Assembly (NCBI RefSeq): GCF_026213295.1
Contig: NC_079423.1
Coordinates: 16,966,896 to 17,030,895, forward strand
Source: Gadus chalcogrammus
Taxonomy: Eukaryota > Chordata > Actinopteri > Gadiformes > Gadidae
Length of the DNA stretch: 64,000 bases
Reading direction: 5' to 3'
Shown: in pieces, positions 235 through 41,621 of the stretch
How positions within the stretch are numbered: the stretch's first letter is position 1
Layout of the letters: each line of letters begins with the position of its first letter
Notes under the pieces: generated by a model
Told to the model about the DNA's origin: nothing
Databases searched by the model: none
What the model saw: the letters and a program-made list of their open reading frames with translations, nothing else
Program-made: the position numbers and the translations under genes

Positions 235-501
235 CCCTCCCTGTCACCTTCACCAAGGAGGTGGAGCCGGTGTCGGTGAGGGAGGGGGGCCGGGCCGTGC
301 TCTGCTGTGAGCTGTCCCGGCCCGGGGCCCCTGTGGACTGGACGAAGGGCCGGACGGTGCTCAGACCGGGGGACAAGTACGAGATGAGGCAGGAGGGGCC
401 CTACACCAAGCTGGTCATCCTCAGCGCAGAGGAGAGCGACGCGGGCAAGTACACCTGTAAGAGCCAGGACGGACAATCCACCGCACAGCTCACCGTCACA
501 G
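235..501 (+). CDS. obscn: obscn Ig-domain exon 1 (of window)
   Basis: A 267-nt phase 1-1 exon bounded by ccctcag and GTAAGG. It encodes one I-set Ig domain: AVLCCELS (B-strand Cys), VDWTKG (core Trp) and DAGKYTC (DxGxYxC, F-strand Cys). It belongs to the diverged part of the Ig array. GC content is much higher than in the homogeneous array downstream. Confidence 0.9.
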
Positions 502-3500
502 GTAAGGTACCGCTGGGATGAGGTCATCACCCATGTTTTGAATGTTTGTAAAGGTGAAAGGTAAAAGCTTAAAGTTGCCTCGGAGTCTAACATTTGGATT
601 TCTTGTTATTTTGAATCGACCCCAAAAATATTTTTTCATTGATATAAAAAGTACTAAGAAGTAAAAAGTTTTTACATAATAATTGTTATTGCATCAAATA
701 AAATACTCAAAATGAATAAATGAACTATGCATAATTGAATTAATAATAAATGCATTCAAGACGTCAAGGTAATTTAAATCCACATGGTATCTACTACATC
801 ATAACGTCTTAAAGGTCTCACCTTACATCCTCATCACATCTTCAGTCATCGTCCTCAATATCTACACCGTGCATGACCTGGTTCGGAGCTCCACCTCATG
901 GCCATGTTCCTCAGCGTTGTCCCCCCCCCCCCCCCAGCTCCCCCCATCACCTTCAAGGTGAAGCTGAGGAACCAGCAGGTGGAGGAGGAGAGCAGCGTCA
1001 CCCTGAGCTGTGAGCTCTCCAGGCCGGGCCTGGCGGCCGAGTGGAGGAGGGGGCTGGAGGTCCTGAAGAGCGGCCTGAGGCACCAGGTCAGACGGAGGGA
1101 GGGCGTGATGGAGCTGACGGTCAGGAACGCCCTGCTGGAGGACAGCGGGGTGTACTGCTGCGTCTACGGCGACGCCCTGACCACGGCCAACCTCACCGTC
1201 ACCCGTAAGGAGACCGCTGCTTCTGCGGCAAAGTCACTTTTACAGTTCACTGCATACTTGTATGCATTTGACAAATACAACTTGTGAATCTTGAATCTTG
1301 AACCTCTGTTTAGATTCAAGATTCAAGAAATAGAGATAGATAGATACGTCTCCGCATGATTCACTGGGTTTCTTAGGCAAATACATGACTTGATTTTATA
1401 ACATTAGGTCCTCTGAAATATTCCACTGCTGGACTTTTTCCTCAGACAGGACACAGTTATATCGGAGTAGTTAGGAAATTATGAAGAATAAATAAACAAG
1501 CAATCCCATAATAAAAGGGAGATCTTGACCTCTCAGGGCTAGGGTCATAGGGGTCAGGGGGGGATAATAAAATAGATGGCTCGTTAAGCCCTTTGAGACT
1601 GTGCGTAAGGGCTATAAAAATAATCCACTAACATGATTGAATGAATCCCTCCCCTCCCCCCCTCCCTCCCTCCCTCTCCTCCCTCCATCCCTCCCCTCTC
1701 CTCCCTCCCCTCTCCTCCCTCCATCCCTCCCCCCCTCCCCCCTCCAGCGATCCCCATCACGTTCAAGACGGGTCTGAAGAACCAGGAGGCGCGTGAGGGC
1801 GGGGACGTGGCCCTGCGCTGCGAGCTGTCCAAGGCCGGCGTCCCGGTGGAGTGGTGGAAGGGGGAGGACCGGCTGGAGCCCGGCGGACGCTACCAGACGG
1901 TGCTCAGCGGCACCTCGGCAGAGCTGCACATCAGGAACATCCAGCCCGAGGACGTGGGCGAGTACAGCTGCATCCTGGGGGAGCAGAGGACCACGGCCGA
2001 GGTCAACGTCAGAGGTAGGGGGTCCCCGTACGGGTCTGGAGTCCTGTTGTCTGGAGTCTTGTTGTCTGGAGTCTTGTTGTCTTATTGTCTGGAGTCTTGT
2101 TGTCTTGTTGTCTTGTTGTCTGGAGTCTTGTTGTCTTGTTGTCTGGAGTCTTGTTGTCTTGTTGTCTGGAGTCTTGTTGTCTTGTTGTCTGGAGTCTTGT
2201 TGTCAGGTTGTATTGAATCTTGTTTTCTTGTTGTCTTGTTGTCTGGAGTCTTGTTGTCTTGTTGTCTAGAGTCTTTGTTGTTGTCACAAACAGTCATTGG
2301 GGTTGTTTTTAATATCCTCAAAACTCAAGCAAAAATACCTTGTCATCAATCCTACGTTCGGTTTGCACACATTATCAGATACATTACAAAATGTATTGAA
2401 TCCCAGAATTCTGACTTTAATCTCAGAATTCAGAATTTAAACTTAGAACTCTAAATAAATAAAAAACCCAAAGTGGCGGCAAAAACATCTGGCCTCCTTC
2501 CTCCCTCCAGCTGCAGCGTCGGTGTACATCGAGAAGGAGCTGGAGAGCCGGGTGGAGGTGACGGAGGGCAAGACGGCCGTGCTCTGCTGTGAGATCTCCA
2601 GCGCCAACGTCCCGGTCACCTGGAAGAAGAACGACACCACGGTGGAGCCGGGAGGCCGGTGCCTCATCAGGAAGGAGGGCTTCACCCACACCCTGGAGAT
2701 CCAGGGTGTGGGTCGAGAGGACGCCGGAGAGTACTGCTGCATCACCCGGGGCAAGAAGACCGCCGCCCGGCTCATCGTGAGGGGTAGGTGGACCGGTAGC
2801 CAGCCACTGAGGTCACTGAGGTCCGGACCTCGGCCATGTCTGAAGAGACGATAGAAAATCCTGACCTAAATACTGTAAATCAGAGGTTCTCTCCGGTCTC
2901 CGAGATGAGTCAATTATTAATTCAGTGAAGACTCATTTCTCCCCACACAAGAAGCCCAACGCCAGGGGAGGGTCTGAGCATGCAGAGGTGAATCCCATAA
3001 ATTCCTCCTGAAACTGATGACATTTTGGGGCTTCTGGATGGCGCTTACTTTTTCCAGGATACTCCTTTCCCCTTGTCGTCAGATTTACGTTTCAACCACT
3101 TGTCCATTTTCTCAAATTTATTTTGTCTAGCTTTCACAATTGACTTTGCTATTCTATTTTTTAATACATTTTCAGGAGTACCCCCCGCAGTACTCCAAAG
3201 TACCCCTAGGGGTGCACATACCCCCATGTGAGACCCACTGACCCAGACCGTTCTCCCTCATCAGAGCGCGTGCGGATCGTCTCGGGGCTGCAGGACCGGA
3301 CGGTGACGGCGGGCGAGGACGCGGCGTTCGTGTGCGAGCTGAGCCACGCCGACGTGAGCGAAGGCGAGTGGTGGCTCCTCTCCAGCCCGCTGCAGAGGAA
3401 CGAGATGAACCGGATGACCTTCCAGGGGCGGCAGCAGCGCCTGGTGCTCACCATGACCACGCCGGACGAGACCGGAGAGGTGGCCTTTGTGATCGGCGAG

Positions 3501-6125
3501 GAGAGGACCTCAGCCATGCTCTTAGTGGTTCCCAGAGTCAAAGGTAGAGATGTTCTGATACCACTTCTTCCTTACCGATACCGATTCCGATTATCGACCG
3601 ATACCGAGTATATACCGATTTCGCATCTAGCATTGTAACTACTAATAGCACTTGTTCTTATTGAAGGGTTCTCTTACGTTGACAGCAATGTATAGTCGGT
3701 ACATTCTGTCGACAATTCATTTTTTTGTCATGTGATGGTATTGAATCGGTGTATAGACTTGCGTACACACCGATACCCAATACTGCATTTTAGGCAGTAT
3801 GGGACGAATTTCCGATACTTGTATCATATCGGAACAATTCTAGACAACGGTAAACAAAGGGACGTGTGAGTCAAAGGGGATTCCTGCCTTTATGATTGGA
3901 CGACCTAACTTAACGATGCACGCTAACAAATCCAAAATTGTCTTTGCAAAATGTAGTTTTGTTGAAGGAGCGGCCTAAGGATGTCGTGATCATGGAGGGG
4001 CAAACGGCCACCCTCTCCTGCACCACGTCTGATGACACCAACCCGGTCACCTGGAGAAGGAACAGCGCACCCCTCCACCACGGCACCAAATACGAGATCC
4101 GCAAGGAGGGCCACCTGAACCTGCTTCTCATCCACGACGCGGAGCTCCTGGACACCGGCACATACACCTGTGACACTGGCGATGTGAAGGGCAATGCCCT
4201 GCTCACTGTGCACGGTAAAACCTATCCAAACGAGGATCTATACCATGTTTGCCTGCTTTTTGTAAAAAATAGTATTGATATTTTTTTACCTATGTCCTGC
4301 ACGATAAATCTTGTATCTTTTGAAGTTAGTTAGTTTGAGTTCGTTGAGGTATATATTATTGCTTTGGGATGTTCATTCTCTTGTGACCCAAGCACCTCTT
4401 ATGACAAGTCTTAACTTGGCATCCAACTCTCTCTTCCAGAACTGCCTCCGTTCTTCCAGGAAGGGGTGCATGATGTAGAAGCTGAGGAGGAAGGAACTAC
4501 CTCTCTGTCCTGTGAGCTTTCTAAGCCTCCTCAGCCTGGAGTGTTGGTGCAGTGGCGGAAGAACAGGCTGCCAATGAGAGCCAACAGGAAGTATGAGATG
4601 AAACAAGATGGCTGCCTGCTCCAGCTCCTCATCAAGGACCTCAAACCAGAGGACAGTGGCAGCTACTCCTGTCAAGTTGGAGAAGTCGAGAGCACTGCTA
4701 GTTTGGCAGTCAGAGGTGAGAACACATTGGATTGGTTTATAATTACCCCAATCTAACATGGTGCATTTGTATATCTTATAATGGTTACATTTCAAACTGA
4801 TGAAACTGTGTAATGGTGTACACAATCATTCTTCCTAGTACGTGGTCAAATATTTGTCAAAAGCTGGATATTGTCTTTGGGCATCATGTTCTGTGGCATG
4901 TACTCTCTTCCCAGTACCCCAAACATATCTATCCTCTGCCCTATCCTGTTCAGTGTTTATATTCATCCCTGCTCTTGTAATCAGCTGGTAAAGAACATCA
5001 TTAATTTGCTACGCTGATGGCATCCAGGTTTTTACTAAGGTATTCAAAGTGTTGGCGAACTCCTTGGGCCTTGTCAATGGCCTCATCCTAGACATTGAAA
5101 TACAGAAAGGACAACACAAAGATTTTGCCTCAAAGAAAGATTTCTATAATACCAACCTATCTCAATGCTGCATATCTTCTCTCCTCCAGAACTCCCTCCA
5201 ACTATCAAGAAGGAGCTACAGAGTGTGGAGGCAGAGGAGGAAGGAACTACCTCTCTGTCCTGTGAGCTTTCTAAGCCTCCTCAGCCTGGAGTATTGGTGC
5301 AGTGGAGGAAGAACAGGCTGCCACTGAGAGCCAACAGGAAGTATGAGATGAAACAAGATGGCTGCCTGCTCCAGCTCCTCATCAAGGACCTCAAACCAGA
5401 GGACAGTGGCAGCTACGCCTGTCAAGTTGGAGGAGCAGAGAGCTCTGCTAGTCTGACTGTGAAAGGTGAGTTCATATTGCAGTGATTCAAAGGTAATCTT
5501 AAAGGCCATTACTCCAATTCAAAAAAAGTGAATTTGTACAACGTACCTGCCATGGCATAACTCCATTCCTTGCATTAGTTAGGGTGACCAGACGTCCTCT
5601 TTTTCCCGGACATGTCCTCTTTTCGAGACCTAAAAAATGCGTCCGGCAGGGATTCCAAAAACGTCCGGTATTTTGCCTCGTCGCAAAAAAAAAAAAATAT
5701 ATATATTATTGTTATTATTATCTTTTTATTTTTTTTTGCCTCGTCGCATATTTGTGTTTCTGGGTCTTTCACATAACCTACTAGTTATTACCATTGTATA
5801 TGTCTATGGTTATTACGGCCTTCCAAGTTCTGGAAATGGTATCTCCCTTACGTTCCACCTTCTTGCGCGAGCTGACTGTAGAGAGAGTCTGTCATTGGGC
5901 GACCGATCTCATGTGCTCGTTGAGAAGGTGCCGTGTATAGACGGAATGAAACCCCCACTGAAGTACGTAGGCTCACGATAAAACACCCCCCCCCCCCCCC
6001 CCCCCCCCCCCCGTCAACAATCTTGCCCGGGGCGCAATTGGACCTAGGATCGCCACTGTCTGCAGCCATGCCTAAACGTAATGTAAGTTCACGGACGAAC
6101 TAAAGAAAAAATACCCATGTTTTCG

Positions 6126-6157
<32 letters not shown>

Positions 6158-9100
6158 CGACGAAGTGTCCTCTTTTTCACAAACTCAAATCTGGTCACCC
6201 TACATTAGTTAGTGGGATTTGGTTGAATAAGCCTCTTTGTCCCGGGGATATAGTGATACTTGATATTATCACGAACCAAACCATCTGCAGTTTTTCAGCT
6301 GAGCGTACCGCATAGTCCCGATTTAATTGTGACACTAAGATCATTCGGGTGACATATATCCATAGGCTGCAAGAAATGGGAATCTCGATTTGTGTCATCA
6401 GCTGGCAAGAAATATCATTCAATCACTATGCTGATGACTCCCAGTTGTAAATATGGTGTCCAATGTCTGGGCTAACACCTTGTCAATGAGCCACCAGAAA
6501 GATTGCATCGTGAAAATGTTCTTCCGAACATAAATAAGAATACGATGTTCCGTATCTTCTCTCCTCCAGAACTCCCTCCTTACTTTGAGGAGGAGATGCA
6601 GGATGTGGAGGCAGAGGAGGAAGGAACTACCTCTCTGTCCTGTGAGCTTTCTAAGCCTCCTCAGCCTGGAGTGTTGGTGCAGTGGAGGAAGAACAGGCTG
6701 CCACTGAGAGCCAACAGGAAGTATGAGATGAAACAAGATGGCTGCCTGCTGCAGCTCCTCATCAAGGACCTCAAACCAGAGGACAGTGGCAGCTACTCCT
6801 GTCTAGTAGGAGGAGCAGAGAGCTCTGCTAGTCTGACTGTCACGGGTGAGTTCATATAGTGTTCTTGACAGTAATATCTGAGGTTATTCCTCCAATGTCA
6901 GATGGTAGTTACATTATTGGAAAAGTATTTTAGTACAAAGTTGAACTTTTAGTACTTTTAGTATTTTAGTACAAAGTTGAACATTGCTAAATGCAGTGAG
7001 TCTCTTCTAAATTACTTCCTATGGCTTCATGGTTACATTTTGGACCCAAAGAGCTGGACATAATCTGGAGCATCATGTTCTCAGACGTGAACTTCCTCCT
7101 CTGTAATTGAGGATAATCTGTTGTCTCCGCCTCATATTGTCACACTGTAGTGCTCTCTTGGTTGGTCATAATTTGGAAAAAAATATCATTAATTTGTTAT
7201 GCTGATGACACTCAGCTGTACCAAGTCATTTGCGGGCTGAAGAATTCTTAATGGGCTTCAACCAGTCAGAAAATTACAACACATGCAAAAAAATGGCCAG
7301 CTCTTTGATGTTGCCCAAAATATATGTTTTCATGAAATCAATCATTTCTCAATGCTTCATTTCCATCTCTTCTCCAGAACTCGTTCCATCGTTCAACAAG
7401 GAGCTACAGAGTGTGGAGGCTGAGGAGGAAGGAACTACCTCTCTGTCCTGTGAGCTTTCTAAGCCTCCTCAGCCTGGAGTGTTGGTGCAGTGGAGGAAGA
7501 ACAGGCTGCCACTGAGAGCCAACAGGAAGTATGAGATGAAACAAGATGGCTGCCTGCTCCAGCTCCTCATCAAGGACCTCAAACCAGAGGACAGTGGCAG
7601 CTACTCCTGTCTAGTAGGAGGAGCAGAGAGCTCTGCTAGTCTGGCTGTCACAGGTGAGTTCATATAGTGTTCTTGACAGTAATATCTAAGGTTATTCCTC
7701 CAATGTCAGATGGTGGTTACATTATTGGAAAAGTATTTTAGTACAAAGTTGAACTTTTACTACTTTTATTTTTTAAGTACAAAGTTGAACATTGCTAAAT
7801 GCACTGAGTCTCTTCTAAATGACTTCCTACGGCTTCATGGTTACATTTTGGACCCAAAGAGATTGACGTAATCTGGAGCATCATGTTCTCAGACTTGAAC
7901 TTCCTCCTCTGTAATTGAGGATAATCCGTTCTCTCCGCCTCATATGGTCACTTTGTAATGCTCTCTTGGTTGGTCATAATTTGGAAACGAATATCATTAA
8001 TTTGTTATGCTGATGACACTCAGCTGTAACAAGTCATTGGTGGGCTGAAGGATTTTAAACGGGCTGCAACCAGTCAGAAAATTACAACATATGTAAAGAA
8101 ATTGCCAGATCTATGAATTTGCCCAAAATATAAATTGTCCTAAAATCAAACATATCTCAATGCTCCATATCATCTCTTCTCCAGAACTCCTTCCATCGTT
8201 CATGAAGGAGCTACAGAGTGTGGAGGCTGAGGAGGAAGGAACTACCTCTCTGTCCTGTGAGCTTTCTAAGCCTCCTCAGCCTGGAGTGTTGGTGCAGTGG
8301 AGGAAGAACAGGCTGCCACTGAGAGCCAACAGGAAGTATGAGATGAAACAAGATGGCTGCCTGCTCCAGCTCCTCATCAAGGACCTCAAACCAGAGGACA
8401 GTGGCAGCTACTCCTGTCTAGTAGGAGGAGCAGAGAGCTCTGCTAGTCTGACTGTGACCGGTGAGTTCTTATACTGTACCGGCTGATATCTAATGTTAAG
8501 GCTATAACTCCAATGTCAGATGGTAGTGAAAATATTGGAAAAGTCCAGTATTTTATTACAAAGTTGAACTTTGCAAAATGAAGTGAGTCTCTTCTGAATT
8601 ACTCCGTACTGCTTAATGGTCACATATTGGACCAAAATATCTTGACATATTCTGGAGCATCATCTTCTCAGACGTGACCTTCCTTCTCAGAAACTGAGGA
8701 GAATCTGTCCTCCCCCTTATCGTGTTCACTCTGTATGTTCTCTCCATGTTGGTCTTCAGTGTTGATAGAATGTAATTCATTTGTTACGCTGATGACACTC
8801 AACTATACTAGTCAACTGTACCAATTAATTGGTTGGCTGAAGAATTATAAATGGGCTGCAACCAGTCATAAAGTTACAACATATGCCTAAAATAGGCCAG
8901 CTCTATGATTTTGCAGAAAATATCTATCTTCCTAAAATCAAACATATCTCAATGCTCCATATCATCTCTCCTCCAGAACTCGTTCCATCGTTCAAGAAGG
9001 AGCTACAGAGTGTGGAGGCTGAGGAGGAAGGAACTACCTCTCTGTCCTGTGAGCTTTCTAAGCCTCCTCAGCCTGGAGTGTTGGTGCAGTGGAGGAAGAA

Positions 9101-12100
9101 CAGGCTGCCACTGAGAGCCAACAGGAAGTATGAGATGAAACAAGATGGCTGCCTGCTCCAGCTCCTCATCAAGGACCTCAAACCAGAGGACAGTGGCAGC
9201 TACTCCTGTCTAGTAGGAGGAGCAGAGAGCTCTGCTAGTCTGACTGTGACCGGTGAGTTAATAACCTTGTTGATCTTTAGGCATTTTAAAGACTCTTACT
9301 CAGATACAAGGTGGTGTTCTTGCATGTTATGACATGTTCATATCCCAGACTTTGTAGTCAAAGGGCTGTTAACAGCGCACAGTTTATTGGTCTGTAGTAA
9401 TTATTAAAATATTAAATATTTCAATGAAAAGTGTACTTATGCCAAATTCTCAAATTGCTGCATACAATTCAGCTGCTGCCTTGTCTCATATTTGACCATA
9501 AACATAGCATTCCCTGGGTGATCCAGTTCTTAGAGGTGCATTGTCTTTTCAGGGTTGTAAAAACATATATTTGTGGCTCTATTCAGTTGAGCTGGTTGAT
9601 GCTCATCTTTGGTGATGTCATCAGATGGTCAGGAATATAGTTTAATCTCTATGCTGATGATACGTAGCTGTACCAAGGTGTCCAAGATATTGGATATCTT
9701 ATTGGCAATGGCGTGGAGTCGGTCGTACACGTAAAGATATCCGACAGATTGGCCTGCCCTATGAATGTGCTGAGAAGATCTTTGCCTAGCATCAAAAGAT
9801 GTGTAGATTAACCATATCCATCTCTCCTCCAGAACTCCTTCCATCCTTCAAGAAGGAGCTACAGAGTGTGGAGGCTGAGGAGGAAGGAACTACCTCTCTG
9901 TCCTGTGAGCTTTCTAAGCCTCCTCAGCCTGGAGTGTTGGTGCAGTGGAGGAAGAACAGGCTGCCACTGAGAGCCAACAGGAAGTATGAGATGAAACAAG
10001 ATGGCTGCCTGCTCCAGCTCCTCATCAAGGACCTCAAACCAGAGGACAGTGGCAGCTACTCCTGTCTAGTAGGAGGAGCGGAGAGCTCTGCTAGTCTGGC
10101 TGTGACCGGTGAGTTCATATACTCTACTGGCTGATATGTTAAAGGATATTACGCCAATGTCAGATGGTAGTTACACTATTGGAAAAGTCCAGTATTCTAG
10201 TACAATGTTTGACTATACTGAATACAGAGTCAGTCTCTTCTGAATTACCCCTTCGTGCTTCATTGTCACATTTTGGACCCAAAGTAAGAAAAATAAAAAG
10301 AAGGTGCCGCAAACTCTGAGTTCCACTGGTAAGAATGATTAATTGGTGATAACAGTTTGGCCTACAAAGGCCTTCATCAGATCACATAGGACCCATATTG
10401 GACCCAAACATCTTGACATAATTTTGAGCATCATGATCTCAGGCATGAACTGCCTCCACAGAAACTGAAGAGAATCTGTTCTCTACGCATCACCTTGTTC
10501 TCTCTGTAATGTTCTCCTGGTTCATCATCAGTTGAGATCGAATGTCAATCATTAGTTACGCTGATGTCACTCAACTGTACCACTCAGCTGTACCAAGTCA
10601 TTTGTTGGCTGAAGAATTTTAAACGGGCTGCAACCAGTCAGAAAATTACAACATATGCAAAAAAAATTCCAGATCTATGAATTTGCCCAAAATATATGTT
10701 GTCCTAAAATCAATCATTTCTCAATGCTTCGTTTCCATCTCTCCTCCAGAACTCGTTCCATCGTTCAACAAGGAGCTACAGAGTGTGGAGGCTGAGGAGG
10801 AAGGAACTACCTCTCTGTCCTGTGAGCTTTCTAAGCCTCCTCAGCCTGGAGTGTTGGTGCAGTGGAGGAAGAACAGGCTGCCACTGAGAGCCAACAGGAA
10901 GTATGAGATGAAACAAGATGGCTGCCTGCTCCAGCTCCTCATCAAGGACCTCAAACCAGAGGACAGTGGCAGCTACTCCTGTCTAGTAGGAGGAGCAGAG
11001 AGCTCTGCTAGTCTGACTGTGACAGGTGAGTTCATACTCTTCTTGATCATCAGGTATTCTAAAGACTCTCCTCAGATACAAGGTGGTGTTTGAAGCATAG
11101 AGTTGATCTGCTGCATGGTCTCATATTTGACCATAAACTTGGAATTTCCTGGAGGGTCCTGTTCTTAGATGTGCAGTGTCTCTTCAGAGTTGTACAAAGA
11201 TATATTTTTGTCTCTATTCAGTTGACCTGGTTGATGCTCATCTTTGGTGATGTCTTTAGCTGGTCAGGAATATAGTTACAAACCTTTGCTGATGACACCT
11301 AGCTGTACCAAGGTGTACAAGAGGTTTGATATCTTATTGACCATGAGGTGGATTCGGTCATACATATAAAGATATCCTATAGATTAGCCAGCACTATGAA
11401 AGTGCTGAGAAGATCTTTGCTTAGCATTAAAAGATGTGTAGATTAACTTTAAACATCTCTCCTCCAGAACTCCTTCCATCGTTCAAGAAGGAGCTACAGA
11501 GTGTAGAGGCTGAGGAGGAAGGAACTACCTCTCTGTCCTTTGAGCTTTCTAAGCCTCCTCAGCCTGGAGTGTTGGTGCAGTGGAGGAAGAACAGGCTGCC
11601 ACTGAGAGCCAACAGGAAGTATGAGATGAAACAAGATGGCTGCCTGCTCCAGCTCCTCATCAAGGACCTCAAACCAGAGGACAGTGGCAGCTACTCCTGT
11701 CTAGTAGGAGGAGCAGAGAGCTCTGCTAGTCTGACTGTGACCGGTGAGTTCATATGTTAAAGGATATTACTCCAATGTCAGAAGGTAGTTACACTATACG
11801 AAAAGTCCAGTATTTTAGTACAAAGTTGGACTATACTGAATACAGAGTCAGTCTCTTCTGAATTACCCCTTTGTGCTTCATTGTCACATTTTATACCCAA
11901 AGTAAGAAAAATAAAAAGAAGGTGTCGCAAACTCTGAGTTCCACTGGTAAGAATGTTTGATTGGTGATAACGTTTTGGCCTACAAAGGCCTTCATCAGAT
12001 CACATAGGACCCATATTGGACCCAAACAAATTGACATCATTTTGAGCATCATGCTCTCAGGCATGAACTGCCTCCACAGAAACCGAGGGGAATCTGTTCT

Positions 12101-15100
12101 CTACGCATCACCTTGTTCTCTCTGTAATGTTCTCCTGGTTCATCATCAGTTGAGATCGAATGTCCTTCATTAGTTACGCTGATGACACTCAACTGTACCA
12201 CTCAGCTGTACCAAGTCATTTGTTGGCTGAAGAATTCTAAATGGGCTGCAACCAGTCAGAAAATTACAACATATGCAAAAAAGTGGCCAGCTCTTTGGTT
12301 TTGCCCAAAATATATATTTTCATAAAATCAATCATATCTCAATGCTTCATTTCCATCTCTCCTCCAGAACTCCTTCCATCGTTCAAGAAGGAGCTACAGA
12401 GTGTGGAGGCTGAGGAGGAAGGAACTACCTCTCTGTCCTGTGAGCTTTCTAAGCCTCCTCAGCCTGGAGTGTTGGTGCAGTGGAGGAAGAACAGGCTGCC
12501 ACTGAGAGCCAACAGGAAGTATGAGATGAAACAAGATGGCTGCCTGCTCCAGCTCCTTATCAAGGACCTCAAACCAGAGGACAGTGGCAGCTACTCCTGT
12601 CAAGTTGGAGAAGTCGAGAGCTCTGCTAGTTTGGCAGTCAGAGGTGAGAACACATTGTATTGGTCTATAATCACCCCAATCTAACATGGTACATTTGGAT
12701 ATCTTATAATGGTTACAGTTCAAACTGATGAACCTGTGTAATGGTGTACACAATCATTCATCCTAGTAGCCTACGTGGTCACATATTTGTCAAAAGTTGG
12801 ATATTCTCTTGGGGTATCAAGTTCTGTGGGATGTACTCTCTTCCTAGTACCCCAAACATATCTATCCTCTGCCCTATCCTGTTCACTGTTGATATTCATC
12901 CCTGCTCTTGTAATCAGCTGGTAAAGAACATCATTAATTTGCTACGCTGATGACATCCAGGCTTTTACTAAGGTGTTCAAAGTGTTGGCGAACACCTTGG
13001 ACCTTGTCATTGGCCTCATCCTAGAAATTGAAATACAGAAAGGACAACACAAAGATTTCTCCTCAAAGAAAGATTTATATAATACCAACATATCTCAATG
13101 CTGCATATCTTCTCTCCTCCAGAACTCCCTCCAACTATCAAGAAGGAGCTACAGAGTGTGGAGGCTGAGGAGGAAGGAACTACCTCTCTGTCCTGTGAGC
13201 TTTCTAAGCCTCCTCAGCCTGGAGTGTTGGTGCAGTGGAGGAAGAACAGGCTGCCACTGAGAGCCAACAGGAAGTATGAGATGAAACAAGATGGCTGCCT
13301 GCTCCAGCTCCTCATCAAGGACCTGAAACCAGAGGACAGTGGCAGCTACTCCTGTCTAGTAGGAGGAGCAGAGAGCTCTGCTAGTCTGGCTGTGACCGGT
13401 GAGTTCATATACTGTACTGGTTGATATGTTAAAGGATGTTACTCCAATGTCAGATGGTAGTTACACTATTGGAAAAGTCCAGTATTTTAGTACAAAGTTT
13501 GACTATACTGAATACAGAGTCAGTCTCTTCTGAATCACCCCTTCGTGCTTCATTGTCACATTTTGGATCCAAAGTAAGAAAAATAAAAAGAAGGTGCCGC
13601 AAACTATGAGTTCCACTGGTAAGAATGATTAATTGGTGATAACGTTTCGGCCTACAAAGGCCTTCATCAGATCACATAGGACCCATATTGGACCCAAACG
13701 TCTTGACATCATCTTGAGCATCATGTTCTCAGGCATGAACTGCCTCCACAGAAACTGAAGAGAATCTGTTCTCTACGCATCACCTTGTTCTCTCTGTAAT
13801 GTTCTCCTGGTTCATCATCAGTTGAGATCGAATGTCAATCATTAGTTACGCTGATGTCACTCAACTGTACCACTCAGCTGTACCAAGTCATTTGTTGGCT
13901 GAAGAATTTTAAACGGGCTGCAACCAGTCAGAAAATTACAACATATGCAAAAAAAATTCCAGATCTATGAATTTGCCCAAAATATATGTTGTCCTAAAAT
14001 CAATCATATGTCAATGCTTCGTTTCCATCTCTCCTCCAGAACTCGTTCCATCGTTCAACAAGGAGCTACAGAGTGTGGAGGCTGAGGAGGAAGGAACTAC
14101 CTCTCTGTCCTGTGAGCTTTCTAAGCCTCCTCAGCCTGGAGTGTTGGTGCAGTGGAGGAAGAACAGGCTGCCACTGAGAGCCAACAGGAAGTATGAGATG
14201 AAACAAGATGGCTGCCTGCTCCAGCTCCTCATCAAGGACCTCAAACCAGAGGACAGTGGCAGCTACTCCTGTCTAGTAGGAGGAGCAGAGAGCTCTGCTA
14301 GTCTGGCTGTCACAGGTGTGTTCATAACCTTCTTGATCATTAGACATTTTTTAATTCTCTCACTCAGAATCAATGTGGCGTTTTTGCATGCAATGACATG
14401 TTCACATCCCAATCTTTTGTAGTTAAAAGGCTTTAAACATTGTAAAACTAGTGGTCTGTTGTGATTGGCAATATTTTAATATTTTAAAGTAAATTGTACT
14501 TATGCAAAATTCAGTTTGTAGCAGACAATTCATCTGCTGCATGGTTGCATATTTGACTGTAAACATGGCATTTAAACCAGTCCTTAGATGTGTACTGTCT
14601 CTTCAGGGTTGTACAAAGATATATTAGGCTCTATTCAGTTGACCTGGTTGATGCTCATCTTTGGTGATGTCATCAGCTGGTCAGGAATGTAGTTAAATCT
14701 CTAAGATGATGATACCTATCTTTACCAAGGTGTCCAACACATTGGATATCTTATTGACAATGGCGTGGAATCTGTCATGCGTATAAAGATATGCTAGAGA
14801 TCGACCAGTCCTATGAATGTGTTGAGAAGATCTTTTCTTAGCATTAAAAGATGTGTAGATTAACTTTAAACATCTCTTCTCCAGAACTCCTTCCATCGTT
14901 CAAGAAGGAGCTACAGAGTGTGGAGGCTGAGGAGGAAGGAACTACCTCTCTGTCCTGTGAGCTTTCTAAGCCTCCTCAGCCTGGAGTGGTGGTGCAGTGG
15001 AGGAAGAACAGGCTGCCACTGAGAGCCAACAGGAAGTATGAGATGAAACAAGATGGCTGCCTGCTCCAGCTTCTCATCAAGGACCTCAAACCAGAGGACA

Positions 15101-18100
15101 GTGGCAGCTACTCCTGTCTAGTAGGAGGAGCAGAGAGCTCTGCTAGTCTGGCTGTGACCGGTGAGTTAATATACTGTACTGGTTGATATGTTAAAGGATA
15201 TTACTCCAATGTCAGATGGTAGTTACACTATTGGAAAAGTCCAGTATTTTAGTACAAAGTTTGACTATACTGAATACAGAGTCAGTCTCTTCTGAATCAC
15301 CCCTTCGTGCTTCATTGTCACATTTTGGATCCAAAGTAAGAAAAATAAAAAGAAGGTGCCGCAAACTATGAGTTCCACTGGTAAGAATGATTAATTGGTG
15401 ATAACGTTTCGGCCTACAAAGGCCTTCATCAGATCACATAGGACCCATATTGGACCCAAACATCTTGACATCATATTGAGCATCATGTTCTCAGGCATGA
15501 ACTGCCTCCACAGAAACCGAGGAGAATCTGTTCCCTACGCATCACCTTGTTCTCTCTGTAATGTTCTCCTGGTTCATCATCAGTTGAGATCGAATGTCCT
15601 TCATTAGTTACACTGATGACGCTCAACTGTACCACTCAGCTGTACCAAGTCATTTGTTGTCTGAAGAATTTTAAATGGGCTGCAACCAGAAAATTACAAC
15701 ATATGCAAAAAAGTGGCCAGCTCTTTGATTTTGCCCAAAATGTATATTTCCATGAAATCAATCATTTCTCAATGCTTCATTTCCATCTCTTCTCCAGAAC
15801 TCGTTCCATCGTTCAAGAAGGAGCTACAGAGTGTGGAGGCTGAGGAGGAAGGAACTACCTCTCTGTCCTGTGAGCTTTCTAAGCCTCCTCAGCCTGGAGT
15901 GTTGGTGCAGTGGAGGAAGAACAGGCTGCCACTGAGAGCCAACAGGAAGTATGAGATGAAACAAGATGGCTGCCTGCTCCAGCTCCTCATCAAGGACCTC
16001 AAACCAGAGGACAGTGGCAGCTACGCCTGTCTAGTAGGAGGAGCAGAGAGCTCCGCTAGTCTGGCTGTGACCGGTAAGTTCATATTCTCCTGGTCGATAT
16101 GTGATCTTAAAGTCCATGAAACCTAATTAAGATGGTCAATTTGTATATGCCATGACCTAACTAGATTTGTGAGTGCATAACTGAAAAGGGATTTGTGAGC
16201 TATACTAAATAGTGATAGTCAACATCATTAATCGCCAAGCCATCTGGATTTCAGGTGAGCTAGTGTGTGGATGGTCCTAAATAAATGGTGATATTGTTCG
16301 TAATGATATCAGCATCATCAGGTTGCTCCAGTCACCACCTTCTCCAGCCCAGAGCTCAGTTTGTGTCATCAGCTCGCAAGGAACATGATTACATTTCTAT
16401 GTTGATGAAAACCAGTTTTTGTGATGGTGTCTAAAGTGTTGGCTTACGCCTTGTAAAGTGGCCAAAATGCAAAGTGCTGTAGACACGTCAGAAGTTTGAT
16501 TGACCCTTGAAGAGGGATTTGCCTAATTTCGAAAATAATAAAATGTTCAATATCTATCTCTTCTCTAGAACTTCTTCCATCTTTCAAGAAGGAGCTACAG
16601 GATGCAGTGGCTAAGGATGGAGAGACTGCCTCTCTGTCCTGTGAGCTTTCGAAGCCTCCTGAGCCTGAAGTGAGGGTGAGGTGGAGGAAAAACAGGCTGC
16701 CACTGAGGGCCAACAGAAAATATGAGATGAAACAAGATGGCTGCCTGCTCAAGCTCCTCATCAAGGACCTCAACCTAGAGGACAGTGGCAGCTACTCCTG
16801 CCTAGTAGGAGGAGCAGAGAGCTCTGCTAGTCTGGCTGTTACAGGTGAGTTTGTAAAACAAATCTCATTGTATGTTTGTTTATATTTCTGCAAAGAAAGC
16901 CTTACTAATGAAACTTTTTTCAAATGGTGTTTAGCGATTGATTTGGATCTCCCTAAGAAGACACTGCCGGTCAAGACAAAGCCTACTTCAGAAGAGAGTG
17001 TTGTCGAACACACTCCTCGAGTTCCACCGGTCACGTCCATTACTAAAGATGCCATACCTGTTCCATTGTCCCAGACCTGCGTGACTGACCAGGAATTAGA
17101 ACTGGAACCAAAGGTGGCACCTAAGGCGGAACCTAAAGTGTCAAAACCTGAGCAAAGGAAGGAGCAGGAAGACCAAGGAGAAACATTGACATACATAGCA
17201 CCTAACAAAGTCAGTGAGGAAAAGCCCAAAGCCAAGCAGCTAGATGGAACCCAAGAAAGAAACAATGACGTGATCAAGAGACGCATGTCAGGTTCTCAAG
17301 ATACCAAGGTTGTGCGATTTGACATCACTGACCCAGAAGATGAACCGCAGCCAACGGCGGAGCCTCAGGTGCCGAAGCCAGTCCCAAGGAGGAAGAATGA
17401 GGTCCAAAGAGACACGTTGCCATTAAAGCTCCTGAAAGAAGACAATGAGGAAGTGCATGAAGTGAAGCAGCTTGAAGGTAAACAAGAAACAATCACGGAA
17501 GTCGACAAGAGACATATGTCAGTCAGTAAAGACACCAAGGTGGTGAGATTTGACATTTCTGACCCAGAATGTGAACTGGAGGAAAGGGTGGAACCTGAAG
17601 TGCCAAAGCCGGTCCCAAGAAGGAAGCATGAAAGAGACGCAGTGCCAATTATGTCTCTGAGTGATGATGGTGAGAAGGGGCATAAAGTTGAGCAGCTTGA
17701 GGTGAAGAAAGAGCATACCTTGGAGATGGAAAAGAGACGTTCGTCTTCAGCTTTGTCACTAGAGAGCAAGAGTAAGAAATCCTCAAATGAAGGACCGATG
17801 GTGAGACCTCTGCAGTCGGCCATGATGAATCAAAAGAAGGAGACAGAGCCCGAGGAACAGAAAGAAAAACTACCATCAACACATTTGGTGAAACCGAGGG
17901 GTGGTGATCAGATGTCAGCACCCACTCCACAGGAACAAAGTGAGATTAAAAAGACTGAACAAATGCCTTTGGACCCACCACAGAAGTATGTCGAGAACAA
18001 ACACATAATGCCTCAAATTGTGACGTATACCTCAAAGGAGGATGACGTACAAAAGAGAGAGGAGGTGCCTTTGAGACCACCGGTAAGAACTAAAGGGAAA

Positions 18101-21100
18101 CTTACTGCGTCAAGCAAAGCATCCGAGTCAGGCTTCAAGGAAATAGTTGAGAGGCAACCATCAAAGGATGATCCTGAACAAGACAAGGTTGTCGAAGATA
18201 TTGTCCCACCACATGAAACCTCTTTGATGGAAGCCACTGTGAAGATGTCACTGAAAGCTCTTGAAAAAACGCCTGCAGCAGATGCTATGGATGAAGTGGC
18301 AGTAAAGACAAAAGAGAGGCCTATTGTGATAGAGACCCTACCACCAAAGCCACCTGCGAGGACCAAAGGCAGGGCCAGGAGGGCATCGGGAAGCCAGTTC
18401 TCAAGAGACTCCGAGGCAAGTCAAGATGAAGAACAGGTCCTGGTCATTCCTGTGTTTAAGAAGGAAGTTCAGGCAGCTCTAGACTCTGTAAAACTTTTCG
18501 AGAAGAAATGTGAGGAGAATAATGATGTTGAGAGGGAACAACCTGTCACACGAGACATCGAGACCGAACAGGAAGCTAAACAACTCGTCAAGAGTAAACA
18601 GAAGGAAGTGGAAATGAAACAGCCGTTGCTGCCAGTGGGGCCCCTTAAAGAAATGGAACAGCCAGTGGCAACACTGGTGGGAACCCCAAGCAGTGTGCCC
18701 AAACTGGACGAGGGCAGGAAGCACGAGGTGCGACCGATGCGCTTGGAGAGTGAGACACCAGAGTCCCGCGATAACATTCCTCTTCTCTTCATCACGGAAG
18801 ACGACACCTTCTCTATAGCCGGATCGGAGAAAACGGTGGACTTCAGCAGCATCCAGCCTTTCGGCTTCACCGTTAATGCGCCATCTCAACCTGCTCCCAT
18901 CCAGCTTTTACCTCAGGTGACCCAACCACCAGAGGCACCAACTGAAGCTCCAGAAGATATCATGGATATCATAGACAATGAACCCGAGATGCTGGAAGCT
19001 GCGGTCAAGATTCAGGCTGCGTTCAAAGGCTACAAGGCCCGTAAAGACATGCGTCCCGTCTTCAAGGAGGTGTTTAAGAACCAGGGGGTGGAACTCGGCG
19101 GTACGGCCCATTTGGAGTGCGTTGCGGAGGGGAAGCTCGAGGCTGTGCGCTGGCTTAAACACGGACAGCAGATAATCGCCGACCAGCGGCACAGGATGAA
19201 GACTTCAGAACACGGTGTCCTCGTACTGGAGGTCACCGACGTGAACCTCATGGACAGCGGCGTTTACACCTGTGAAGTCGTCAATAAGTTTGGTGTGATC
19301 TCCTATAGCGGTAACATAACCGCACAAGCGACCCCAGCCAGCACCACCAAGCCTGTTCACTCTGCGCTCGCAGCCATAATGCCACTTCAACCGGTGCCCC
19401 AGAAGCCTCAAGCCCTGGCAAAGCCGATGCCCCAGGCTCCGCCTCCGACCCAGGCTCCGCCTCCGACCCAGGCTCTGCCTCCAGCCCGGACTCCAGTAGC
19501 CCCGGTAGCCTTAGCCAACGAGCCGACCGGCTTTGTCGTTGAGAGTGAGGGCGTCTCTCTATGGGAGGCCTACAACCTGACTGAGCAGGACAGCCAGATG
19601 ACTCTGCAGGAGAGGAGGCGAGCCTCGCTGATCCCTGCCAGTTCCAGTAAGTGACCCGGTAGCATGGATCAGTTCGTGGTTCACTTGAGACGCGCTTGGA
19701 CACGGGTCGTTACCCATTTCGTTGTGTTGCTATGCAGAGAGCGCCGTGGCCGTCCTAGGAAGGGGAGGGGCGGTATGTCTGACCTTGCGGTGGTTTTCTG
19801 CGAAGTGGAATGGATTCAAAGTGTAACTGGTTATGACTCTCTGGTGTTAATGACACCATGACACTCCACGCTAAGCAATCGATTTGAAGTGCAGTCCAAA
19901 CATCCAGAATGTTTTAAGCTGGAGCTCATATAAATGTCATCAAACCTAGGGAACCGTGTCCAACCGCGTCTTAAGTGAATTCCCCTACAGCGTGGGGGAT
20001 TCTAGTCTGGCTGAGGTGCCCCTGGCTGTTACTATCGATAACACCTGCCTTGTTCTTTAGAAATAGGAAGTTCAATAGCAATCCAATACGCCCAGTGTAC
20101 ACATATTTGTATCACCTTTGATCACCTGTAACCTGTGAATCTTCTACACTGACCCGGTCTCCCTCAGTGTCCAGCCCCTCCGACTACGACACCGCTCCAG
20201 ACTACATGGAAGCTCTCGAGACCGCTCCCGAACCCAGGTCAGATAGGGTGGCTGCATGCCCGATTTCAAATGAAACCATTGCCCTGTAGCAACTGAACCA
20301 ACCTCAGATTATCCTCACAGCGAGGATCCCGAAGAGGAACAGGTGGCTGTGATGGACGATAGAGAACCGACAGCTGAGACGCGACCACAAATGAAACTCC
20401 TGAAGGTCAAAGGTCAGCAAGGCCAATTCTAAACGAATCAGCATCGAGAACAAACATTAAATGACGGCTTATGACCTCTTTCTGTGTATTTTGGTCCAGG
20501 TGAATTTGAGGGCGTATCAAGAACACCCTCTCCTAAGCATCACCGTGCCCACGCACCTTTAGCTGCTGCCGGCTCAGCGTCAGAGTCCGAGGGAGACGAA
20601 GATAGAAGAGAGGTTTACATTTTTTCTTCGTATATAATGTTCTATTTCTATGACACACTTACATTCACATACAGAACGTCTGCATGCAAACATCCGTGGT
20701 AATGCCTGGTGTTTGCCCGTTCCTTTATTCGACCAGACCTTTGACATCTACGTGGCCCGAGCCGACTGCAGCCCCAGCGCTGGAAACAAGGAGGCCTTTA
20801 TTCTGAAGGAGGGCCAGTTTGTAGAGGTCCTGGATTGTGTACACCCGGACAAGTGGTTGGTTCGCACGAAGCCCACCAAAAACAACCCTGTACGGCAGGG
20901 ATGGGTCTGCCCAGCGTATCTGGAGAAGAAGAGAACCGTAGGAAACACTTTGTATTTCCCTTCGTGCCTTTTCCAGGCCATGCAACAGATAATTCTCTGC
21001 TAATTACCTCCATAAATAAAATTATTACATTCGCTTGTATAAATCCCAGAATAATGATAGGATAACCATAAAAATGTTCTAAACACAATAACAACACGAC

Positions 21101-24100: not shown

Positions 24101-27100
24101 TGCAACATACAATAAGTGTGTACATAAAGTGCCAGGTTAACCTAACCCTAACACTACCCTAACAATTAACTCAGCAGTCAGGAAGTCAACCTGTTGTGAA
24201 ACTGCCTTTGATGTCGGGTGCTTCACTGCTTTACTGTGAACGTCCATTGAGCCCCTTTCCTTCTCAGGGGGTCTTGACGGTGTGGGAGGAATCCCCGGAG
24301 ATGAAGACGGCCAGCAGAGGGCAGCAGAGACAAGTGTTCCTCTTCAAGGACTGTGTGATCCTGTGTAAACTGAAGAGGGGCCCCGGGGCCAACACTGACG
24401 TCTACGGCTTCAAAAACAAGATGAAGGTGAGAGGAAGGTGCATGCTTAATGCAAAGGAAAACCCTGATTAGCATCTGGATCACCACCAAAAGGTCCTATG
24501 TCGGTTTTTATCCCCCTGGCATCAACCAAAGAACTATTGTTGGATATGAATATGTTTGGAAACCAATTATTCATTATCTTCTTTAAACACACACATATAT
24601 ATAGATATGTATATAGATATAGATATAAAAAGCATGCTTTATACAAAATAAATATTATTTGAATACAAAACAATGGACAGCGGAATAAAATCACAATTCA
24701 CTTTTTATAATATTCTCATGACATGAATGCACTACAGACCTTAAATCTCCCTCCCCCCTTCCTCCCCCCCCCCCCCCCCCTCCCAGCTGAACGACCTGAA
24801 GGTGAAGGACAGTCCCGGGGGGGGAGGCGACGAGAGGAGCTGGGTGCTGGGCCACGAGCACCGGGGCTCGGTGCGGACCTACACCCTGCAGGGCCGCTCC
24901 ACCCTGGTCAAGCTCTCCTGGCTCCGGGACCTCAGGGAGCTCCAGCAGACCTCTGAGCTCCCCTGCTGCAGTGAGTCCCTCTATCAGTCAGACCAGAGCA
25001 AACGATCAGACCTCTGAGCTCCCCTGCTGCAGTGAGTCCCTCTATCAGTCAGACCAGAGCAAACGATCAGACCTCTGAGCTCCCCTGCTGCAGTGAGTCC
25101 CTCAATCAGTCAGACCAGAGCAAACGATCAGACCTCTGAGATGGGCGAAGTTCTGAGTGAACTGTTGGACACTTGTTGATGAGTCAATTCTCTTATTGTT
25201 GGAAATAATTTCAAATTCTGCGTATAGATATATATATATTTGTATATTTAATATTTCAATTTAGGAAAATTATTTAATGAAAATCTAGTTCAATATTTAA
25301 AAAGTTATTTTCTACTAATTGTATCGTCATGCAATTCTGCTGCTGTGAAGCCCAAACACCTGGTCTTTGATTAATAATGCCTATCTCATCATATCCATTT
25401 TGGCACGCAGAGGATACTCCTGTAAATACAATACAAGGTCATTCTGTGTCTCTTCTACCCTGTTTGGTTCCTTGGTGTGTGTCTGCGTGTCCCAGGCCCG
25501 CCAGTGTTTGAGGAGCAGCTGTCAGACGTCACCACCCAGCCGGGGCAGACCATCCGGCTGGCCTGCAGGGTGACCGGCTCCCCCGCCCCGGTAGTCAGCT
25601 GGCTCAAAGGTACGGGCCCCAGCGGGGTCACAGGGTCAATCCCAGAGCGCCATGGGACTCTGGAGAGGGAGACAATTGTTGTGTTCTTTCCGAATGTAAC
25701 ACAATATTAGGGTGTGGGGGATTGTTGTTTCATATCGGCAAAGTGGCCATCCAAAAGTACATTCAATCAATCAATCAAACTTTATTTATACAGCGCCTTT
25801 CGTGCAAAATGCAATGCAAGGTGCGTAGCAATGCAATGAAAATAAAGTAATATAAAAGCGTCTGTTAAATGCCCTGAATGTTAATGTAAATGACCCCAGG
25901 ACGCTGACCCTAACATGTGGTGTTGTGGTGCCCCCAGACGGGCTCCACCTGGACGTGGACCTGCGCCACATCCTGACGGCCAGGCGGTCGGGGGCCCACA
26001 GCCTGGTGCTGGACGGCCTGGCCCCGGGGGACGGGGGCCAGTACCTCTGCTACGCCCTCAGCCCGGTGGGCAGCGCCAGCACCCTGGCCCGGGTCACCGT
26101 GGAGGGTGAGGGCGATGCCAGGCATCCATTCATCCGTTCATACCGATGTTCACTTTGATTTAGAATGAATTTAAATCTCTTCATCATACCCATTATTTAA
26201 ATTGCTAATTAGGTTTGAAAGAGCTCTTGGAAAAAATATGTGAAAAAGATATCACCACCTAAGGTTGACTTGTAACCGGAAGGTTGCTAGTTCGGTCTCC
26301 TAGCTGTGTGTTGAGGTGCCCCTGAGCAAGGCACCTCACCCTGACCGCTCCCAACGAGCCGGCTGTCGCCCAGCGCGGTCGACTCCGCCGTCGGTGTGTG
26401 AATGTGTGCATGAATGGTTGACCGTCGCTTTGGATAAAAGTGTCTGCGAAATGCCCCAGATGTAACGTAAATATATATATGAATGATGGTCAAAATGTTT
26501 ATTCGAGAAGATAAACAGAAGCGAAAAGTCAAACAGTCCAAGCCACATGTAATCCATGTAGACGACGTGGGTTTATGACTGCGGCCTGTACTGTAGTCAC
26601 ACGGTAACTCACCCCTCCTCTCCCCAGCTCCTCCCCGGTTCCTCAGCCGACTGGAGAGCATGTGTCTGATGGAGGGGGAGGACCTCCAGTTCATCTGCTC
26701 CACCCTCTCCACCCCCCTGCCCAGAGTCAGGTACAGCCCCCCCCCCCCCCAACCCTTATCAAAAGGACAGTTGTTACCGTGGACCCGACTAACCCCTGAG
26801 TTATCCACTGTATCGCCAGGTGGGGTAAAGATGGCGTAGAGCTGACCGACCGGAGTAAGTACCGGATCTCCAACGACGCCCGCAGTGGGATCCTGACTCT
26901 GACCGTCGTCAGCCCCACCGAGGCCGACGTCGGCCTCTACGAGTGCGAGGTACGAAACGCAAGTCAAGAGGTGCATCAGAATAAGGATGGATGTAAAGAA
27001 TATATCGATTGTGTAGTGGCACTTGGTTCCATTACACATCCTTACTGTACCGACGACAGCGATATTTTGTTCTTTCTCTTTCTTCTGACAAATGCACTTA

Positions 27101-40680: not shown

Positions 40681-41621
40681 GCAGAACCCAACCGTCACCC
40701 CCTTCAAAGGTTTACCCTTCTTGTTGGCTCGGATAAAAAGCGACCCTTACGTTTTATTCGACGACGAGCGATAAAATACGACTGTGTTGCCCCTTATGTT
40801 TATATGCTGGTATAAACATAAGGTGTAAGGCTAATTGGCTCGGATAAAAAGCGACAGTGTTGCCCCTTATGTTTTATATGGCGACGAGCGATAAAAAACG
40901 TAAGTGTTACCCCTTAGGTTTAATTCAACAACGACCGATAAAAAGCGACAGTGTTACCCCTTATGTTTTATTCGACAACGACCGATAAAAAGCGACAGTG
41001 TTGCCCCTTATGTTATATTTCACAACAACCAATAAAAAACAACAGTGTTAAACCTTATGTATTTTTTCATGGCGTGTGATAAAAAGCAACAGTGTTACTC
41101 TTATATTTTATTAGACAACGATGATAAAAAAAAAACGACAGTGTTACCCCTTATGTTTTATTCGACAACGACCAATAAAAAATGACAGTGTTACCCCTTA
41201 TGTTTTATTTGACAACGACCAATAAAAAACAATAGTGTTACCCCTTATGTTTTTTTCCATGCCGAAAGATAAAAAGCGACAGTGTAACCCCTTATGTTTT
41301 TTTCCATGACGTGTGATAAAAAGCGACAGTGTTACCCCTTATGTTTTTTTTTCATGACGAAAGATAAAAAGCGACAGTGTTACCCCTTATGATTTTTTCC
41401 ATGACGAAAGATAAAAAGCAACAGTGTTACCCCTTATGTTTAATTAGACAACGATGATAAAAAAAAAACGACAGTGTTACCCCTTATGTTTTTTTCCATG
41501 ACAAAAGATAAAAAGCGACAGTGTTACCCCTTATGTTTTATTCAACGAGAGCAAAAAAAGACGACAGTGTTACCCCTTATGTTTTTTTCCGTGACGAAAG
41601 ATAGAAAGCGACAGTGTTACC

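Follow-up and report, generated by a model that had tools for sequence, protein, structure and literature searches.

The window, a 64,000-nucleotide stretch of the Gadus chalcogrammus genome, carries a fish obscurin gene. This identification, already made in the preliminary description, agrees with database names, with an exon that encodes an IQ motif and an Ig domain (the IQ-Ig exon), and with PH and kinase domains farther downstream. The top database relative of the window protein is the obscurin of Merluccius polli, in which six successive Ig domains match the upstream Ig exons U1-U6 in the same order at 79-85% identity. Between these six diverged exons and the IQ-Ig exon lies an array of fifteen Ig exons, E1-E15, at positions 4440-16844 (Table 1); U1-U6, E1-E15 and the 2712-nt exon that follows join into a single 2820-codon frame without a stop. 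Pfam finds I-set in an array exon and both I-set and IQ in the following exon, as in an obscurin, where a series of I-set Ig domains, for the most part encoded by single exons, leads up to IQ and Ig. The kinase of the long obscurin isoform is represented by separate Pkinase pieces. Of the SH3-DH-PH module that in obscurins comes after IQ-Ig, the PH domain was detected; an SH3-like exon scored 13.6 bits, under the Pfam cut-off, and no Pfam match was found for the DH candidate pieces of the gene.

Table 1. Exons, introns and downstream domains of the obscurin gene, in window positions
Feature	Position	Strand	Remarks
U1-U6, mutually diverged upstream Ig exons	235-4214 (235-501, 938-1204, 1748-2014, 2511-2783, 3265-3543, 3957-4214)	+	AG/GT ends, open frame
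Ig exon E1	4440-4715	+	ends differ from other copies (FFQE at the start; QVGE and VR at the end), core like theirs
I1, class gamma	4716-5189	+	93% identical to I10, 7.9 kb away
Ig exon E2	5190-5465	+	
I2	5466-6569	+	longest intron, 1104 nt; no full-length relative among other array introns
Ig exon E3	6570-6845	+	
I3, I4, I5, class alpha	6846-7377, 7654-8184, 8461-8976	+	I3/I4 91% identical; I5 about 78% to I3 and I4
Ig exon E4	7378-7653	+	between class alpha introns I3 and I4
Ig exon E5	8185-8460	+	between class alpha introns I4 and I5
Ig exon E6	8977-9252	+	
I6, class beta	9253-9832	+	grouped with I8 and I12
Ig exon E7	9833-10108	+	
I7, class alpha	10109-10749	+	grouped with I9, I11 and I13
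Ig exon E8	10750-11025	+	
I8 and I12, class beta	11026-11467, 14316-14884	+	I6/I8/I12 80-84% identical over longest matches
Ig exon E9	11468-11743	+	Cys to Phe at the unit's first conserved Cys
I9, I11, I13, class alpha	11744-12367, 13399-14039, 15161-15797	+	with I7, 93-97% identical
Ig exon E10	12368-12643	+	3' end E1-like: nine 3' columns common to E1 and E10 only
I10, class gamma	12644-13122	+	in the slot where beta/alpha alternation predicts a beta intron
Ig exon E11	13123-13398	+	5' end E2-like: columns 6, 11, 13 and 14 common to E2 and E11
Ig exon E12	14040-14315	+	identical to E4; weaker donor GTGTGT
Ig exon E13	14885-15160	+	
Ig exon E14	15798-16073	+	
I14	16074-16568	+	no full-length relative among other array introns
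Ig exon E15, diverged sister unit	16569-16844	+	
Long post-array exon, IQ motif and I-set Ig domain	16935-19646	+	Pfam, open frame
SH3-like exon	20641-21003		under Pfam cut-off
PH domain	24163-24465		Pfam
Pkinase pieces	30161-30574, 30905-31141, 38126-38383		Pfam

All fifteen array exons lie where the preliminary description had placed them, and each is 276 nt long and in phase 1-1, with an AG acceptor, a GT donor and no in-frame stop. The upstream exons U1-U6 measure 258-279 nt, not 276, and are diverged from one another, as had been described, with neighbouring domains 20-42% identical in protein. The further claim that fourteen array exons are nearly identical and differ mostly at their ends was confirmed, with a correction for some copies. 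Of the 276 columns of E1-E14, 46 vary: the first 44 nt hold 23 of these, the last 49 nt hold 14 and the stretch between them holds 9. The ends of E1, E2, E3 and E10, however, are less alike than those of the remaining copies, and E1 differs from the other E1-E14 copies at 20-32 sites. Mean protein identity within E4-E14 is 96%, and E4 and E12 are identical over all 276 nt, though 6.7 kb apart. E15 differs from the E4-E14 consensus at 30 of 276 sites.

The array introns sort into classes alpha, beta and gamma, and many members of the same class are clearly diverged. The preliminary description had called the introns similar too, which is true of I1/I10, I3/I4 and I7/I9/I11/I13 (3-9% different; the closest pair in the array, I7/I11, differs at 18 of 606 sites) but not of the other 17 of the 25 same-class pairs, which are 17-25% different. 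No Pfam family was found for a YADD-bearing reading frame inside the gamma introns.

It is this intron divergence, rather than intron similarity, that provides the actual evidence for conversion. In the 17 diverged pairs, whose introns are 17.5-24.8% apart, the flanking exon cores carry 0-2 differences in about 81 synonymous sites, a contrast with a binomial P of <1e-4 for each pair, the pairs not being independent. Synonymous sites are thus homogenized beyond the flanking neutral DNA around 17 of the 25 pairs but not around the other 8, where exons and introns contrast little or not at all (P of 0.005-0.38) and recent block duplication would suffice. For the seven exons preceded by an alpha intron, windows of 40 columns have a mean divergence of 0.067-0.214 within the intron, up to about 17 nt short of the exon, and of 0.000 wherever they lie between exon nucleotides 24 and 183. 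In the core codons (15-75), pS and pN are 0.0135 and 0.0025 for E4-E14; for E1-E14, core pS is 0.021, compared with 0.22 in codons 1-14 and 0.18 in codons 76-91. E15, used as a control, shows ordinary divergence from E1-E14 (at 11.5-19.5 of some 64 synonymous sites); a mosaic test of E15 was weak, with 61 of 2000 permutations equally extreme. In the gamma transfer linking E1-I1-E2 with E10-I10-E11, both ends fall within exons. Conversion was assessed inside one genome, from the window DNA, and other fishes were compared as proteins. The exon-intron contrast in 17 of 25 pairs, together with the ordinary divergence of E15, points to an old array in which gene conversion acts mainly on exons, with some larger transfers that span introns. 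This supports the proposal that the array was shaped by tandem duplication and conversion and not by protein selection alone.

For comparison with other fishes we tabulated 70 hand-picked species, one record each, out of 236 database matches; isoforms, non-teleosts and some teleosts (among them Danio, Cirrhinus, Coregonus and Synaphobranchus) were left out, and Salmo trutta was dropped because a single unit lies between its anchors. The other 69 tabulated teleost obscurins all have the array flanked by the same neighbours. Unit number varies by species, from 8 to 30 in the 68 other teleosts with both anchors; these counts from predicted proteins are approximate, since anchor-based and identity-based counting give different numbers for five species out of 69 (Larimichthys, 6 and 10, respectively; Sphaeramia, 11 and 12; Salvelinus, 13 and 9; Solea, 21 and 14; Knipowitschia, 15 and 14).

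Copies are more alike within than between species: protein identity is 96% within E4-E14, 90% within Merluccius polli units 2-13 and 86% between the two, a difference that weakens with extra gadiform-like records. In a tree with Merluccius polli, all 15 window units form one clade (support 100/92), whereas unit 1 of five further teleosts clusters across species (99/97). One-to-one orthology, which the preliminary description had named as evidence against its reading, was not found for the inner units when the array was compared with that of Merluccius polli and those of five less closely related teleosts. When Muraenolepis and a Lepidogalaxias-labelled record were added, the window units needed two tree changes rather than one and formed a single clade in 14% of bootstraps; this loss of strict monophyly indicates that unit types common to several gadiforms persist. 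Cores-only or ends-only trees with the added records required three changes but had too few characters, the ends tree having 56 of 80 rows. A 3-residue insert is present in 15/15 window units and in 44/44 units of Merluccius polli and Muraenolepis; of 801 units elsewhere, 9 carry it, and 7 of the 9 come from a single record that looks oddly gadiform. No clean signal emerged that E1 has ends, but not a core, orthologous to unit 1 of other species (against Merluccius polli unit 1, 19/28 positions are identical in the ends and 56/64 in the core).

Three rival readings, namely recent expansion of the whole array, duplication by the assembler and constraint on synonymous sites, were considered and ranked behind conversion. 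Very recent expansion, in which one or two units multiplied too lately to differ, had been one of two options in the preliminary description and is not supported, as the array occupies the same place in all 69 other tabulated teleosts and most introns are too diverged. Many of the 17 diverged intron pairs also have large length differences, and the beta introns I6/I8/I12 are less alike (80-84%) than the alpha introns of the same supposed blocks (93-97%). The whole-array version is therefore already contradicted, and recent expansion in general is improbable, even though the alpha introns of E7-E14 are only 3-7% apart and part of that region could be a recent two-exon block duplication. Decidedly improbable, too, is constraint on synonymous sites (through splicing enhancers, RNA structure or codon choice) acting with protein selection and without conversion. 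Excerpts of one report describe alternative splicing of human muscle OBSCN Ig exons (PMC11871629), which would fit such constraint, but E15, of the same family and gene, has diverged at synonymous sites, pS is high at both ends of E1-E14, and constraint alone would not predict a species' own variants being identical in all copies.

Near-identical arrays are difficult to assemble, and the 30-unit array of Muraenolepis, with five-unit blocks repeated almost without protein difference, may be an artefact. That an assembler repeated or misjoined units in the window is nevertheless very unlikely, given that the longest exact repeat within 4301-17000 is 295 nt and that every unit's introns differ from all others, down to the closest pair. 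Homogenization templated by reverse-transcribed obscurin mRNA, overwriting exons and halting at splice sites, would account for homogeneity that is centred on exons and declines near their ends. We regard it as far-fetched, because some transfers carry whole introns (I1/I10; the alpha introns of E7-E14) and because copy-specific differences are kept at exon ends, as expected of DNA-templated tracts.

We favor, at a probability of roughly 0.85, the reading that this is an old tandem Ig array of fish obscurin that evolves in concert via exon-centred conversion. Tandem duplication would have multiplied the units at the start, partly as two-exon (beta plus alpha) blocks. Protein constraint on the exons would then keep a stretch of roughly 200-270 nt alike enough for pairing, so that ectopic gene conversion would begin there, overwriting the cores and erasing synonymous differences too, and introns, having drifted too far apart, would seldom be covered. 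An occasional longer tract may have carried a whole intron and halves of both flanking exons (E1-I1-E2 to E10-I10-E11), and longer tracts may also lie behind the homogenized alpha introns I7/I9/I11/I13. Unequal exchange within the same exons would alter unit number. By analogy with obscurin generally, the array may serve the protein as a spring or spacer built of near-identical Ig domains, gaining or losing 92 residues with each unit.

The array resembles the nebulin (NEB) triplicate region, as described in parts of PMC9142044, and the titin (TTN) segmental duplication in being a set of near-identical tandem exon blocks in a giant muscle gene with gain and loss of copies. Those are multi-exon blocks of two to three copies, whereas obscurin repeats a single Ig exon (in part a pair) 15 times, and its introns have diverged more than its exons. 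The titin PEVK-C exon repeats are likewise homogeneous and differ in number among species, according to excerpts of PMC6469411, whose main text does not use the wording "gene conversion"; they are short disordered PEVK exons, whereas the obscurin array encodes folded Ig domains. Dscam also has Ig exons duplicated in tandem within one gene, but its alternative exons are mutually exclusive, while the 15 phase 1-1 exons of obscurin can all join in frame. Among other vertebrate obscurins, which share gene and Ig type, shark, sturgeon, lamprey and mammal records contain near-identical unit clusters, some of them elsewhere in the protein than the window array (in Pteropus alecto, from about residue 885 of 4908); identities here were taken over HMM columns, and cluster sizes alone from ungapped comparison with E7, which is out of register for 88-89-residue units. 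No report of conversion or concerted evolution in obscurin appeared among the literature matches listed, in which "obscurin" partly matched "obscuring." One source, in the portion available, names OBSCN, TTN and NEB among the genes whose human haplotypes show excess homoplasy, and there reports no OBSCN gene conversion.

Adjacent array units are 82-98% identical, against 20-42% between upstream Ig domains. Array neighbours are more alike than upstream Ig neighbours in 68 of 69 other teleost obscurins, with identity above 0.70 in 47 of 69, and mean neighbour identity over the 69 teleost arrays is 0.75, compared with 0.40 for the Ig domains upstream of them. Titin work, as excerpted from PMC4660218, holds that neighbouring Ig domains must differ in sequence, identical ones making long-lived misfolded states; the titin pair I27-I28, at 24% identity, forms none (PMC4660218, same excerpts). 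Judged from predicted protein sequence, the obscurin array shows the reverse of the divergence between neighbours that is held to keep tandem Ig domains from misfolding. It is conceivable, though we think it unlikely, that homogeneity is itself selected: many teleost obscurins would keep a near-identical Ig lattice, whether as a uniform spring or as a docking surface that repeats, despite the misfolding risk, with exon-to-exon conversion as the means of upkeep and mixed A-B orders (Salvelinus) as another way of coping with that risk. Provided that the units are translated side by side, these arrays would provide a natural many-species test of the neighbour-divergence rule. The locus would offer a clean case of exon-centred conversion within one gene, in which the intron classes serve as markers, and the array is a candidate for length polymorphism in a muscle protein of commercially important fish.

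The gene lies on the + strand and the window starts within it (see the table). When the six diverged upstream Ig exons (U1 to U6), the 15 array exons (E1 to E15) and the 2,712-nt exon that follows them (the IQ exon) were spliced in silico, they yielded 2,820 codons and no stops; downstream of these, Pfam places a PH domain and then pieces of a kinase. The best database relatives are named obscurin, namely, that of Merluccius polli (84% identity over the queried part), joined by that of the gadiform Muraenolepis orangiensis once longer proteins were admitted to the search. U1 to U6 are 79 to 88% identical to these two and 60 to 83% identical to four other acanthomorphs (Lucifuga, Plectropomus, Hippoglossus, and Oreochromis), from which we take the window to be probably gadiform. 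Elsewhere in the gene region, a 744-residue open frame (32680–34911), for which a Pfam search found no family, holds a 21-bp repeat (33854–34224; 17.6 copies at 91%) that may encode a 7-residue repeat. The window also carries, at 40843–52412, an 11.3-kb satellite (about 239 copies of a 47-bp unit, 82% matches) and after it a short stretch (52247–52412) with a consensus that reads like the reverse strand of that unit.

Features of the obscurin array and its flanks, in window coordinates
Feature	Position or members	Strand	Basis
Six diverged Ig exons, U1–U6	235–4214	+	AG/GT ends, open
Array Ig exons E1–E15, each exactly 276 nt	4440–16844	+	AG/GT ends, all open
2,712-nt exon with IQ motif and I-set Ig domain	16935–19646	+	Pfam
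Alpha class introns	I3, I4, I5, I7, I9, I11, I13	+	sequence identity
Beta class introns	I6, I8, I12	+	sequence identity
Gamma class introns	I1, I10	+	sequence identity
Introns outside classes	I2, I14	+	sequence identity

Of the 276 columns, 46 vary among E1 to E14, and 37 of these lie in the 5'-most 44 or 3'-most 49 nt; E4 equals E12 over the full exon. Protein identity averages 96% for E4 to E14 and 92% for all 15 units (array Ig domains), the latter ranking second among 70 teleost arrays (the window and 69 others), below only Mastacembelus. In the core of E1 to E14 (codons 15 to 75), synonymous difference per site is 0.021, compared with 0.22 in codons 1 to 14 and 0.18 in codons 76 to 91. 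Protein selection cannot level synonymous sites; such sites do diverge in a unit left alone, as E15 differs from E1 to E14 at 11.5 to 19.5 of about 64. GC3 is 0.57 to 0.63 in array exons and 0.82 to 0.98 in U1 to U6; the exons are homogenized without GC enrichment, contrary to the tendency of GC-biased conversion. In a single copy, E9 (11468–11743), the unit's first conserved Cys is replaced by Phe.

We set all 25 same-class intron pairs against synonymous sites in the flanking exon cores. In 17 pairs, the introns are 17.5 to 24.8% apart while the cores show 0 to 2 differences per about 81 synonymous sites (binomial P, 7 × 10−10 to 2 × 10−5, for pairs that share exons and introns and so are not independent). 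In the other eight (I3/I4, the six among I7, I9, I11, and I13, and I1/I10), introns are 3 to 9% apart and P is 0.005 to 0.38. Across the alpha set, mean divergence in 40-column windows is 0.067 to 0.214 in the intron and 0.000 at exon nt 24 to 183.

Nine 3' columns are common to E10 and E1 only, four 5' columns are common to E11 and E2, and I1 and I10 are 93% identical; from these, a stretch of about 540 nt with both ends within exons appears to have been copied across 7.9 kb. Introns I6 to I13 follow a beta/alpha alternation, broken only where gamma I10 stands at an expected beta place. We read this as replacement, hence conversion, with unequal exchange a possible alternative. Neighboring introns have different histories, because I7, I9, I11, and I13 are 93 to 97% identical and the adjoining beta introns only 80 to 84%. 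Gamma introns I1 and I10 contain an open frame (at 4992–5327 and 12925–13260, respectively) with LICYADD, which we take to resemble a reverse transcriptase motif; a Pfam search with this frame gave no match. The array copies are unlikely to have been made by the assembler: the longest exact repeat within 4301–17000 is 295 nt, and no intron pair in the array is identical. Copies may have been lost in assembly.

Between their U6 relative and IQ exon, the 68 other teleost records that have both anchors carry related units, 6 to 30 by anchors and 8 to 30 by identity (median 12 by both; the counts disagree in 5 of 69 records); the M. polli record has 14 units, without the IQ end. Within-array mean identity runs from 0.55 to 0.95, so the strength of homogenization differs between lineages, from weak to strong. 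A 3-residue insert occurs in 15/15 window units, in 44/44 units of M. polli and Muraenolepis, and in 9/801 units elsewhere, namely, seven in a record labeled Lepidogalaxias and two, of other sequence, in Diretmus. NCBI places Lepidogalaxias salamandroides in Lepidogalaxiiformes, yet the obscurin in the record so labeled looks gadiform (88% identity to the window in IQ-Ig and 74 to 85% in U1 to U6; insert in 7/9 units), and the record is possibly mislabeled or mixed. Residues 2788 to 3969 of Muraenolepis orangiensis repeat a five-unit block three times. The unit pairs shown differ by no more than one residue each, and some units end abruptly after SYSCQ or CCQ; the cause may be a recent duplication of blocks or an error of prediction or assembly.

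In an 84-unit tree of seven species, the window's 15 units form one clade (100/92) beside M. polli, and all seven species together need 16 species-label changes (shuffled mean, 56.6). Across five other species, the first units cluster (99/97), as do a few inner units, so concert is incomplete. With Muraenolepis, the Lepidogalaxias-labeled record, and Diretmus added (80 rows), label changes number 2 for the window, 9 for Muraenolepis, and 7 for M. polli; from cores only, the window needs 3. Units 1 to 8 of M. polli alternate between two types, one of which the ends of E1 and E3 resemble.

Adjacent units are 82 to 98% identical in the window array, against 20 to 42% in U1 to U6. Array neighbors likewise exceed the upstream Ig region in 68 of 69 other records (means, 0.75 versus 0.40), and array neighbor identity is above 0.70 in 47 of 69. 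The lone exception is Salvelinus, where two unlike units alternate (adjacent, 0.35; next but one, 0.97). Arrays of the salmonids Salvelinus and Coregonus interleave the array unit with an unlike second Ig unit, which in Salvelinus is U6-like, and next-but-one units are about 97 to 100% identical. In titin experiments, identical neighbor domains reportedly misfold stably and a natural pair at 24% identity does not (PMC4660218), and OBSCN exons skipped in human muscle mostly code for whole Ig domains (PMC11871629).

The exon cores are level and most introns are not, at an old address where unit number varies by species. Conversion would require a few hundred matching bases. Selection would maintain the exons in a pairable state, conversion would begin in them, and exchange would alter unit number. 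No earlier report on obscurin conversion or concerted evolution was among the literature matches listed. Nebulin and titin offer precedents for this kind of system (PMC9142044, PMC6469411); we regard a single-exon Ig unit in this many copies, its exons homogenized beyond their introns, as a new variation on them.
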